In this document: piece after piece, positions 60,538 to 64,000 of the stretch
Layout: every line of letters begins with the position of its first letter
Position numbering within the stretch: position 1 is the stretch's first letter
Assembly (NCBI RefSeq): GCF_038561935.1
Contig: NZ_CP102770.1
Coordinates: forward strand, 2,480,001 to 2,544,000
Length of the DNA: 64,000 nucleotides
Reading direction: 5' to 3'
Source: Myxococcus stipitatus
Lineage (GTDB): Bacteria; Myxococcota; Myxococcia; Myxococcales; Myxococcaceae
Position numbers and translations under genes: made by a program
Notes under the pieces: generated by a model
Told to the model about the DNA's origin: nothing
Databases searched by the model: none
The model's input: the letters and a program-made list of their open reading frames with translations, nothing else

Positions 60538-60596
60538 GAAGGGCCACGGTGGGCGTGCGGCTCCGACGCGCCCCTGTGGCCCTTCTTCGGTTTGAC
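60538..60596 (+). terminator. Intrinsic terminator after the DUF808 gene
   Basis: A stem of GAAGGGCCAC (60538-60547) with its exact complement (60576-60585), continued inside by GGGCG/CGCCC pairing, is followed by TTCGGTTTGAC. It lies 12 bases after the stop codon and ends just before the promoter of the GntR gene. Confidence 0.8.
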
Positions 60597-60620
60597 GAAA
60601 CTTGGTAACCAAGTTAGGAA
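60592..60620 (+). promoter_or_regulatory. Promoter and operator of the GntR regulator gene
   Basis: Candidate -35 TTGACG (60592-60597) and -10 TAGGAA (60615-60620) are 17 bases apart. The spacer is filled by the perfect palindrome AACTTGGTAACCAAGTT (60599-60615), containing TGGT-A-ACCA, which resembles FadR-type half-sites. The GTG start at 60628 lies about where transcription should begin, so the mRNA could be leaderless, although AGGA at 60616 could also serve as ribosome site. Confidence 0.75.
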
Positions 60621-60627
60621 TGACGGC

Positions 60628-61314
60628 GTGCCTGGCTCATCCCGTCAGAAGCCGCAGCGTGCCGCGGAGCTCGTGCTCGAGGCGCTGTGCGTCGCCATCT
60701 TCGACGGCAAGCTCAAGGAGGGGGACCCCCTGCCTCCAGAGCGAGTCCTCGCGGAGACGCACGGCGTCTCGCGCATCATCGCGCGCCAGGCGGTGCATAC
60801 GCTGGTGGACGCAGGTCTCGTCGAGGCTCGGCAGGGCGGAGCCTCTCGCGTGTTGGACGTCGCCGCGGCGGATGCCCGGGCGCTGGAGCTGCTCTTCCGC
60901 TATGGCTCGCGCCTTCGAGGGGGTGGCGCGCGGCTCCGCGAGGAGCTGGTCGAGTACCGGCTCCTGTACGTGGTGATGATGCTCGACGCCGCGCACCGGA
61001 AGGCGACCGACGAGGAGCGGCGCGCCTTGCTCGCGTTCGTGGAGGCGTGTCCCGCCCAGCCCTCGGAGGCGCGGGCCCGCCAGCTCGACACGGAGTTCTG
61101 GCGGCACGTCACCGCGATGGGCCGGAATCAAATCATGCGGATGGAGATGGCCCTGTGGGAGCGCTGGGCGGACCCGAGTGCTCCGCTCGATGGCAAGGCC
61201 GACGAGCTGCGCTGGTTCTACCACGTGCTCGCCAAGCAGCTGCTGTCGCGCCAGGACCCGATTCCCTTCTACCTCGCGACCATCCGTCCGACGTTCGCTC
61301 CTGCTTCCCGCTGA
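60628..61314 (+). CDS. GntR/FadR-family transcriptional regulator
   Basis: A 228-residue regulator. The N-terminal winged helix reads AELVLEALCVAIFDGKLKEGDPLPPERVLAETHGVSRIIARQAVHTLVDAGLVEARQGG; the C-terminal FCD-like helical domain contains EYRLLYVVMMLDAAHRKATDEE and DTEFWRHVTAMGRNQIM, with metal-binding-type His. The GTG at 60628 is chosen because the reading frame above it overlaps the -35/-10 and operator. The same palindrome recurs before the downstream flavin oxidase, indicating autoregulation and control of that gene. Confidence 0.9.
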   Translation: MPGSSRQKPQRAAELVLEALCVAIFDGKLKEGDPLPPERVLAETHGVSRIIARQAVHTLVDAGLVEARQGGASRVLDVAAADARALELLFRYGSRLRGGGARLREELVEYRLLYVVMMLDAAHRKATDEERRALLAFVEACPAQPSEARARQLDTEFWRHVTAMGRNQIMRMEMALWERWADPSAPLDGKADELRWFYHVLAKQLLSRQDPIPFYLATIRPTFAPASR

Positions 61315-61358
61315 ACCCGGTGTGGCCGGCACCGGTGTGTGTATTGGCTTGTCCGCTC

Positions 61359-61375
61359 AACTTGGTAACCAAGAT
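61359..61375 (+). promoter_or_regulatory. Second copy of the GntR operator, before the flavin oxidase gene
   Basis: AACTTGGTAACCAAG (61359-61373) is identical to 15 bases of the 17-base palindrome at 60599 and lies 12 bases upstream of the start codon, so a bound regulator would block transcription or initiation. Confidence 0.75.
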
Positions 61376-61385
61376 GGGAGTCCCG

Positions 61386-62822
61386 ATGAAGCGCTTCAGT
61401 CGGATGGGTGCCCTGGCTGCGATTTCACGGCGGTCGTTGCTGAAGTGGCCCGCGGCGACGTGTGCGGTCTCCGTGCTGGGAAGCAGTGAGGGCCTCGCGC
61501 ATCCTCGCGTCTGGGACGTCGACGTCGACGTCGCCGTCGTGGGCGCGGGGCTGTCTGGCTTGAGCGCCGCACGGATGCTCGCTCGCGCGGGGCGCAGTGT
61601 CGTGGTGCTCGATGCGCGGGACAGGGTGGGGGGCCGCACGTTGAACCAGCGCACCGTGGGGAATCACCCGGTCGATGGCGGTGGACAGTGGATTGGCGCG
61701 AGCCAGACGCGCGTCATGGCGCTCGCGGACGAGCTGGGCATCCAGCGGGTCGCGCAGCACGAGGCGGGGCTTCGGGTCGCCCACGTCAATGGCAGGCGCA
61801 TCACGTTCGAGAAGGAGGTTCCGGGCGCGGAGACCCTGCGTGTCCAGGCGATGTTGGAGGGGCTGGCGCAGCGGGTTCCGCTCGAGGCGCCATGGACTGC
61901 TCCGGGCGCCGTGCTGCTGGATGCGCGGAGCGTCGCGGACTGGCTGCAGGCGAACGAGGTCGGGGAAGAGGCGCGTGGCGCGGTGGCGGGGACGATTGGA
62001 ACGACGCTGAGCGCGAGCCCCGAGAACATCTCCCTGCTCTGGTTCCTCTTCTATCTGCGCTCCGCGGGTGGCTTCACGGAGCTCAACGAGGGGGCGCAGC
62101 AGTATCGGTTGGAGGGGGGGGCCCAGGCCCTCTCGCTGCGGCTCGCGGAGGAACTCTCGGGCAGCGTCGTGCTGGGGGCTCCCGTGCGTCGCATCCGGGG
62201 ATGGTGCACGGACTCGGTGGTGATTCACTCCGATGTGGGCACGGTGCGTGCGCGCCGCGCCATCGTCGCGATGATGCCGAGGGACGTGCAGCGCATCGAC
62301 TTCACGCCAGCGCTTCCGCGCCAGCGCGAGGCTCTTCAGCGGTCCTGGGGCGCGAGCGCGGGCTTCAAGGTGCACCTCGTCTTCGACCGTCCCTTCTGGA
62401 GAGAGGAGGGGCTCGCGGGGGTGGGCTTCACGGATTCAGGGGTGGTGGAGCTGACGTTCGACAGCACTCCGGCGGATGGCTCGGTGGGTGTCCTATTGGC
62501 GTTCGTGAGTCCCTCGGCGGCACGGCTGCCCGTGGCGGTCCGTCGTGCTCGTGTCATCGAAGATGTGGCGAAGCTCTTTGGCGAGCAGGCGCGAGTGCCT
62601 CGGGACTACCTCGAGCAGGACTGGGCGCGCGAGACGTGGAGCGCGGGCTGCGTCTCTCCACTGCCTCCGGGGTTGATTTCGTCATGGGGCAGTGCGCTCA
62701 AGGCTCCCACCGGACGCATCCACTGGGCGGGCACCGAGACTTCGGGCGTCTGGTGTGGCTACCTCGACGGCGCCATTCGAGCGGGCGAGCGCGCCGCGTC
62801 CGAGGTGTTGTCCCTGCTCTGA
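61386..62822 (+). CDS. Tat-exported flavin monoamine oxidase-family protein
   Basis: A 478-residue FAD enzyme. The ATG at 61386 is preceded by GGGAG; the N-terminus shows a Tat motif SRRSLLKWPAA and hydrophobic core (about 14-35). FAD binding is by VDVAVVGAGLSGLSAARMLARAGRSVVVLDARDRVGGRT, with the second flavin motif at the C-terminus (IHWAGTETSGVWCGYLDGAIRAGERAA). The internal motif GGGQWIGASQTRVMALADELG is typical of amine/polyamine/L-amino acid oxidases. It should act in the periplasm, producing H2O2 from an amine. The substrate may be the inducer sensed by the adjacent GntR regulator (inference). Confidence 0.9.
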   Translation: MKRFSRMGALAAISRRSLLKWPAATCAVSVLGSSEGLAHPRVWDVDVDVAVVGAGLSGLSAARMLARAGRSVVVLDARDRVGGRTLNQRTVGNHPVDGGGQWIGASQTRVMALADELGIQRVAQHEAGLRVAHVNGRRITFEKEVPGAETLRVQAMLEGLAQRVPLEAPWTAPGAVLLDARSVADWLQANEVGEEARGAVAGTIGTTLSASPENISLLWFLFYLRSAGGFTELNEGAQQYRLEGGAQALSLRLAEELSGSVVLGAPVRRIRGWCTDSVVIHSDVGTVRARRAIVAMMPRDVQRIDFTPALPRQREALQRSWGASAGFKVHLVFDRPFWREEGLAGVGFTDSGVVELTFDSTPADGSVGVLLAFVSPSAARLPVAVRRARVIEDVAKLFGEQARVPRDYLEQDWARETWSAGCVSPLPPGLISSWGSALKAPTGRIHWAGTETSGVWCGYLDGAIRAGERAASEVLSLL

Positions 62823-62914: not shown

Positions 62915-63646
62915 ATGTCGCATTCCGTCGTCCCCACCCTTGTCGGCGAAGCCTTCTCTCCGTGGACGCAGAAGGCTCGCTGGGCCCTGGAGTATTGCGG
63001 CGTCGCGTTCGCCTATCGCGAATACGTCCCGACGCTGAGCGAGCCGTGGCTTCGTTGGCGCATGCGGCAAGCGTCGGGCAAGGTGTCGGTGCCCGTGCTG
63101 CTCGTGGGCGATGAGGTCGTGCGTGGCTCCTGGGACATCGCTCGCTTCGCCGCGCGGCGGGCCGGTGACAGCCGGCTCGGTGACTTCGAGGCCATCGCCC
63201 CTTGGAACAGCCTCAGCGAAGCGGCGCTCGCCGAAGCGCGGACCCGCGTGGTCCTTCGCACCTTGGCGGACCCGGAGGCGCTCGACGAAGCCTCCGCCGC
63301 GATACTCCCGCGAGTGCTCTGTCGCCCCCTTCGATTCATCGCCCGCGATGCCGCGCGCCGGCTCGACCGCAAGTATCGCGACCTCGTCGTGCCGGGCTCC
63401 CTCCGACACGCGCTGGAGCGAACCCGTGCCGGTCTGCGCGACATGGGCGGCGAGCACCTGTTCGGTCACTTCACCTATGCCGACATCACCATGGTCGTGG
63501 TGCTGGAGGCGCTGGCCCCCGCCGCGCGCATCCATCCACCGCTCGGCCCCGCGGCGCGCCGCTGCTGGAGTGACGCGGCCTTGGCGGAGGAGTTCTCGGA
63601 CCTGCTGCACTGGCGCGCACGCTTGATGACAGCCCATCCGGTGTAG
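62915..63646 (+). CDS. Glutathione S-transferase-like protein
   Basis: A 243-residue GST-fold protein. The thioredoxin-like N-terminal domain begins VVPTLVGEAFSPWTQKARWALEYCGVAFAYREYVP with SVPVLL (cis-Pro) and GSWDIARFAA; the C-terminal helical domain includes HFTYADITMVVVLEAL. No CxxC is present; the potential N-terminal Ser/Pro-Trp site (SPWTQK) is in the position of the catalytic residue. Substrate unknown. It is followed 12 bases later by the ATPase gene. Confidence 0.82.
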   Translation: MSHSVVPTLVGEAFSPWTQKARWALEYCGVAFAYREYVPTLSEPWLRWRMRQASGKVSVPVLLVGDEVVRGSWDIARFAARRAGDSRLGDFEAIAPWNSLSEAALAEARTRVVLRTLADPEALDEASAAILPRVLCRPLRFIARDAARRLDRKYRDLVVPGSLRHALERTRAGLRDMGGEHLFGHFTYADITMVVVLEALAPAARIHPPLGPAARRCWSDAALAEEFSDLLHWRARLMTAHPV

Positions 63647-63658
63647 GAAACACCGCGC

Positions 63659-64000
63659 ATGCGCATCGCCTTCTCCGGCACCCACCGCGTGGGGAAGTCC
63701 ACCCTCGTCGAGGAGCTCTCCGACCTCCTCCCCTCCTACGCGACCGTGGACGAGCCCTATCTCGAGCTGGAGGAAGAGGGCTACGAGTTCGCCTCACCCC
63801 CCTCGGTCGAGGACTTCGAGGCCCAGCTCGCCCGCTCCATCGACCACCTGGGTGACACCGACACCGGGCCCGATGTGTTGTTCGACCGCTGCCCCGTGGA
63901 CTTCATCGGCTACTTGCAAGCCCATGACGACGCCGAGTCCTTCGACCTGGATTCATGGCTGCCCCGCGTGCGCACCGCCCTCCAGTCGTTGGATTTGATT
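63659..64000 (+). CDS. P-loop ATP-binding protein, N-terminal part (cut by window edge)
   Basis: The ATG at 63659 opens 114 codons that continue beyond the window. It starts MRIAFSGTHRVGKSTLVEEL, a Walker A motif (GTHRVGKST), followed by VDEPYLELEEEGYEFASPPSVEDFEAQLARSI and DVLFDRCPVDFIGYLQ (DRCPVDF resembles the DR-P/Walker-B-like region of AAA/nucleoside-kinase-like ATPases). The family resembles single-domain AAA_28/thymidylate-kinase-like proteins. The rest of the protein is needed for a firm call. Confidence 0.75.
   Translation, partial: MRIAFSGTHRVGKSTLVEELSDLLPSYATVDEPYLELEEEGYEFASPPSVEDFEAQLARSIDHLGDTDTGPDVLFDRCPVDFIGYLQAHDDAESFDLDSWLPRVRTALQSLDLI

Follow-up and report, generated by a model that had tools for sequence, protein, structure and literature searches.

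Two identical palindromes lie in the DNA of Myxococcus stipitatus analysed here, one directly before a gntR gene and the other directly before the amine oxidase gene that follows it. The locus raises the question whether both are operators through which the regulator controls itself and its neighbour. The answer favoured here, with a probability of about 0.86, is an ordinary self-regulated two-gene switch, in which a GntR repressor of the FadR subfamily would act on its own gene and on the adjacent monoamine-oxidase-like gene. The features concerned are listed below, with positions in the window (the whole stretch of 64,000 nt that was analysed).

60592-60597, + strand: -35-like TTGACG of the gntR promoter, from the sequence; TTTGAC invariant in 5/5 genomes
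60599-60615, + strand: candidate operator site 1, AACTTGGTAACCAAGTT, with core CTTGGTAACCAAG at 60601-60613, inside the -35/-10 spacer; 16-bp invariant run 60600-60615 in 5/5 genomes
60615-60620, + strand: weak -10-like TAGGAA, 17 nt past TTGACG, from sequence and genome comparison
60628-61314, + strand: gntR, FadR-subfamily-like transcriptional regulator of 228 aa with a GTG start; Pfam GntR match, in 5/96 family genomes
61359-61375, + strand: candidate operator site 2, AACTTGGTAACCAAGAT, with its core at 61361-61373; 17-bp invariant run in 5/5 genomes
61386-62822, + strand: monoamine-oxidase-like flavoprotein of 478 aa with the N-terminal twin-arginine motif SRRSLLK; Pfam Amino_oxidase and PDB matches

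The palindrome and its two positions

The 15-mer AACTTGGTAACCAAG occurs in the 64,000-nt window at 60599-60613 and 61359-61373, and its core CTTGGTAACCAAG is a 6+1+6 palindrome. A sequence-only reading had held these to be the sole two places, each directly before a gene, and this holds for the genome as a whole: exact copies of CTTGGTAACCAAG, and likewise of CTTGGTWACCAAG, number two in 10.17 Mb, both at the gntR/oxidase locus. The genome scan that it had proposed thus returned no unrelated loci. Up to three mismatches to AACTTGGTAACCAAG gave four matches in the window, which are the two sites on both strands, against a chance mean of 0.17. One mismatch to CTTGGTWACCAAG added a single genomic place (L003), 5' of a 320-aa frame; one-mismatch sites never precede the best homologue of the gene downstream of L003 in G061, G070, G072 or G066, the homologue in G066 being merely 45 % identical. 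At two mismatches to ACTTGGTNACCAAGT 18 distinct places were found besides the two sites (24 rows, some on both strands). Up to three mismatches gave 244 places/strand over the whole genome versus 266 for the reversed pattern. These loose matches are therefore at chance level, further targets were not accepted from them, and in a genome scan the near-exact form of the palindrome alone is meaningful. Repeated palindromic words (6-bp arms, spacer 0-4) are not rare per se, as the window holds five of them versus a mean of 1.24 and a maximum of 5 in 100 first-order Markov sequences. The weight lies in position, genome-wide uniqueness and conservation.

As for position, the palindrome at the first site fills the spacer between -35 and -10, as had been read from the sequence alone: 17 nt separate TTGACG and TAGGAA. 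The TAG of the -10-like element is present in the same register in four of the five genomes with gntR (G066 has TTAGAG), and a consensus promoter scan that was stricter on the -10 listed no promoter at site 1. In all five genomes the GTG start of gntR lies 14 nt past the palindrome. Because TAGGAA ends 7 nt 5' of this GTG, the geometry TTGACG/17 nt/TAGGAA/GTG indicates that the gntR messenger may be leaderless.

At site 2, where no clear -10 was found, the core ends 12 nt 5' of the oxidase ATG in all five genomes. Another ATG, at 61374-61376 directly 3' of the site, reads ATA in G072, so the oxidase most likely starts at 61386 and a start at 61374 is unlikely. Transcription of the oxidase gene might start at the gntR promoter and continue into it, site 2 then acting as an additional block. 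Between the genes, at 61317-61335, there is one terminator-like hairpin, which does not exceed chance (one found versus 0.6 expected).

The distance between the two sites is 759-761 bp in all five genomes. Such nearly constant spacing could point to a pair of sites looping over gntR, but it follows from the length of gntR, 228 codons in each of the five, plus 45-47 nt. The regulator could also act as an activator; at least one FCD regulator, CitO, induces its targets (PMC4746285). A site placed within the -35/-10 spacer is instead suited to obstructing the polymerase, and activation or looping, taken together, is considered rather unlikely. The same candidate operator stands before gntR and before the oxidase gene, which is the arrangement of an autoregulated local regulator.

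Distribution and conservation in relatives

Among the 96 genomes searched from the family Myxococcaceae, five carry gntR (E 1e-20, up to 30 first-look candidates scored per genome). A search of the class (147 genomes, E 1e-15) returned the same five carriers, and a search of the phylum (195 genomes, E 1e-12) returned 17 genomes, of which 12 contribute 13 distant homologues with 31-37 % identity. The exact operator is present in six of the 96 family genomes. Each of the five carriers has exactly two copies, which precede the same two genes, gntR and the oxidase gene, in every case; G067 has one copy, which was rejected as an operator since it sits inside a 514-aa open frame and was taken as chance. 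The exact operator is absent from the other 90 of the 91 family genomes without gntR.

This distribution bears on the possibility that some other regulator, encoded elsewhere, recognises the palindromes and has gntR as just one of two targets. The pairing of the GntR protein with the site is indeed a prediction. However, further targets would be expected of an unlinked regulator, and the near-complete absence of exact sites from genomes without gntR, set beside the two copies in each carrier, makes this explanation improbable.

Alignment in relatives, which the sequence-only reading had proposed as a check, revealed that both sites are invariant in all five genomes with gntR. At site 1 the invariant run spans 16 bp, and the TTTGAC of the -35 element is likewise unchanged; at site 2 the run spans 17 bp and is accompanied by TTGT. 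Among the fourfold-degenerate columns of gntR 50 of 107 are invariant in these genomes, and 16 invariant columns in a row would have a probability of ~5e-6 if columns were independent, which is a rough figure. The depth of this conservation is limited by the fact that all five carriers belong to one genus, Myxococcus; Myxococcus sp. CA023 (G066) differs from the other four at 36-44 % of the fourfold sites.

In four of the carriers (G000, G070, G061 and G072) gntR and the oxidase gene lie 3' of a DUF808 gene. In CA023 both genes and both sites are found at another locus, between two unrelated frames and without DUF808 or GST neighbours; the DUF808 gene of CA023 sits on a different contig. The flanking frames are presumably DUF4082-like and GNAT-like proteins. 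This second, unrelated locus argues that the two genes and both sites behave as a unit. A GST-like gene lies 3' of the oxidase gene in the window (62915-63646) and has no match in the stretches of G072 and CA023 that were examined, for which reason the unit is taken to comprise gntR, the oxidase gene and the two sites. In G072 the oxidase gene is directly followed by a homologue of the window gene at 63659. Within the genus, 22 of 27 genomes lack the unit. At nine further DUF808 loci (88-91 % identity in seven, 68-69 % in G066 and G063) neither gntR nor the oxidase gene is present in the 4.6-7.4 kb downstream. A scan of named genomes with two short peptide patterns yielded CA023 and one locus of a MAG (L019, 43 % over 53 residues).

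Since the unit has two distinct genomic locations and most genomes of the genus lack it, the 15-bp direct repeats flanking gntR could be recombination or insertion scars (target-site duplication). The repeats, however, are palindromes in promoter positions, and both copies are invariant while their flanks diverge. The second copy separates gntR from the oxidase gene instead of marking the distal end of the unit. Apart from the open-frame copy of G067, no exact leftover copy was found in family genomes without the unit, including the seven with a DUF808 gene of 88-91 % identity, and among the 96 genomes an empty site with exactly one repeat copy was not seen. Scars are therefore a very improbable explanation. 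The small autoregulated system that had been predicted is supported by the invariance of the sites in the five carriers, by the lack of copies in 90 of 91 non-carriers and by the second locus in CA023. Neither outcome named in advance as speaking against it, poor conservation or copies at many unrelated loci, was seen.

The regulator and its site compared with the FadR subfamily

The N-terminal part of the regulator is a GntR winged helix-turn-helix (HTH; PF00392, 4.9e-13, 49 bits versus a cut-off of 27). A match to FCD (3.6e-4, 21.4 bits) stays below the Pfam cut-off of 24.3. The best PDB sequence matches are an Rv0494/FadR chimera, a DNA-binding domain of the FadR family (LutR) and PdhR. A model of the regulator, built from two sequences, is usable for the HTH; its C-terminal half is helical but poor, with a mean pLDDT of 55.8 for the whole model and the lowest values C-terminally. 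A Foldseek search with this low-confidence model ranked the FadR chimera and FadR first, at TM 0.37-0.38, values below 0.4 that support a FadR type weakly. The base-contacting residues of FadR include Arg35, Arg45, His65 and Gly66 as given in Table 1 of PMC4494728. In the author's alignment these correspond to Arg39, Arg49, Gln69 (His in FadR) and Gly70, which are invariant in the five carriers. The regulator resembles the FadR subfamily (FadR, PdhR, Rv0494) in a winged HTH with Arg, Arg and Gly at contact positions, and also in having a palindromic candidate operator a short distance from where gntR itself begins.

The site itself departs from the rule of the subfamily. That rule is TKGT/ACMA with GT and AC 3 nt apart, or 2 nt in several groups (PMC4494728). 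The site ACTTGGTAACCAAGT can be read as TGGT-1 nt-ACCA, or at canonical spacing as TTGG-TAA-CCAA. TKGT-N3 (or N2)-ACMA therefore does not describe it, the spacing being 1 nt or, at 3 nt, GG/CC replacing GT/AC. This departure does not exclude membership of the subfamily by domain, because members with other motifs, NanR and BioR, are listed in the same source (PMC4494728).

All 13 distant homologues (31-37 % identity) were compared for helix and site. Eleven have the helix NRSS[VI]RE where the regulator studied here has SRII, and all 11 (L095, L096, L097, L099-L103, L105-L107) carry TGGTCGGACCA between 260 bp upstream and 30 bp downstream of the point where the match begins. The full ACTGGTCGGACCAGT, a site of the kind known from E. 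coli FadR, is present in 10 of these 11. The other two homologues, with helices SRLM and SRLT, lack TGGTCGGACCA, and TTGGT[AT]ACCAA occurs in none of the 13. With a palindrome near the start of their own genes in 11 of 13 homologues, autoregulation from there looks usual in the wider family. Two direct repeats of ACTTGGT (L093, ~1385-1415) lie 5' of the closest distant homologue, the 37 %-identical SRLM regulator of G190; they are inside the preceding open frame, are probably due to chance and were rejected as a site.

When the two types of site are aligned by their centres, the outer ACT/AGT of the carriers' site and its G/C at ±3 agree with the other type, and the differences fall at the centre and at ±1, ±2 and ±4. 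The helix has S in place of N at HTH position 37, II in place of SS at 39 and 40, and Q in place of E at 43. The pairing of SRII with ACTTGGTAACCAAGT, versus NRSS with TGGTCGGACCA, suggests a coupled change of helix and site. Such a change fits PMC4494728, where HTH residues 39 and 40 are tied to the bases at ±1 and ±4 of the site. According to the same paper Arg at HTH position 28 and Gly at 59 prefer G/C at ±4 (PMC4494728). Both residues are kept here and yet ±4 is T/A, which counts against the canonical register; on the reading with 1-nt spacing the preference of Arg28 and Gly59 is satisfied. It is a tentative proposal, somewhat less likely than not, that this FadR-subfamily repressor represents a natural change of specificity, isolated from the parent regulon: helix (SRII versus NRSS) and core (ACTTGG-TAA-CCAAGT versus ACTGGT-CGG-ACCAGT) differ together from the commoner form among its relatives, the GT/AC rule is broken, the ACT/AGT arms are kept and there is one private target.

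In the alignment with the distant homologues Asp154 and one His are kept, a Trp occupies a position at which only 3 of the 11 NRSS homologues carry His, and a Tyr occupies one at which all 11 do. These positions, Asp154 and the aligned His, Trp and Tyr, were assumed to be those of metal ligands. Loss of metal ligands was considered as a clue to the ligand of the regulator and, as the alignment is weak there, no conclusion was drawn.

The oxidase and the proposed control

The Amino_oxidase domain (PF01593, 3e-60) is matched over the entire profile (1-443 of 443). The best PDB match is the monoamine oxidase 8p84 (residues 46-477, 1.2e-92), followed by putrescine oxidases. The Cys of the SAGC motif aligns with a Cys in 8p84 and an Ala in the putrescine oxidase 3rha; in MAOs this Cys holds the FAD. 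By its full-length domain match, with 8p84 closest, the protein resembles these members of the flavin amine oxidase family. Unlike them, it has an N-terminal twin-arginine motif, seen in the window as SRRSLLKWPAATCAVSVLG, in which the motif is followed by a hydrophobic stretch. The putative Tat signal of the exported oxidase proposed in the sequence-only reading recurs as SRR[SF]LLK in all five carriers, and the oxidase would accordingly be exported via Tat.

Binding by the GntR protein, repression as the sign of its action and the nature of its ligand are all predicted from sequence. The protein, presumably as a dimer, would bind ACTTGGTAACCAAGT at two places, in the spacer of its own promoter and directly before the oxidase gene. 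Without ligand the polymerase would be blocked and both genes would be shut, so that the regulator would limit its own synthesis and repress the oxidase. A small molecule, in the simplest case the substrate of the enzyme or a related amine or aldehyde, would bind the C-terminal domain and release the GntR protein from the DNA, upon which the exported oxidase would be made.

Judged in this way, the locus is very probably an ordinary but unusually clean autoregulated switch. It offers a clean two-site, one-target regulator in Myxococcus and a way to track down the signal to which an amine oxidase bearing an export motif responds. Furthermore, NRSS with TGGTCGGACCA and SRII with ACTTGGTAACCAAGT form a comparison pair for testing base choice by FadR-type helices. 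Literature searches found no paper joining GntR, monoamine oxidase, operator and palindrome, none on a Myxococcus GntR with an amine oxidase, none on a GntR-family regulator of putrescine oxidase, none linking FadR to TGGTCGGACCA and none on a bacterial monoamine oxidase structure. Judged from titles, none is evidently on a GntR regulator with monoamine oxidase, and among the matches listed the papers that spell out the operator motif look unrelated to GntR regulators.

In the class, oxidase matches at 1e-60 were found in 32 of 147 genomes, namely the five carriers (79-100 % identity) and 27 others (43-47 %). Fifteen of these 27 less similar loci were examined, and there tblastn (E up to 1) gave no gntR match within ~1.5 kb on each side. 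In all 15 an ATG precedes the FAD motif by a few codons, and with this choice of start, which is the author's, the 15 oxidases are read as having no leader. Most of the 15 frames are open further upstream, and L025 reads SRRF there.
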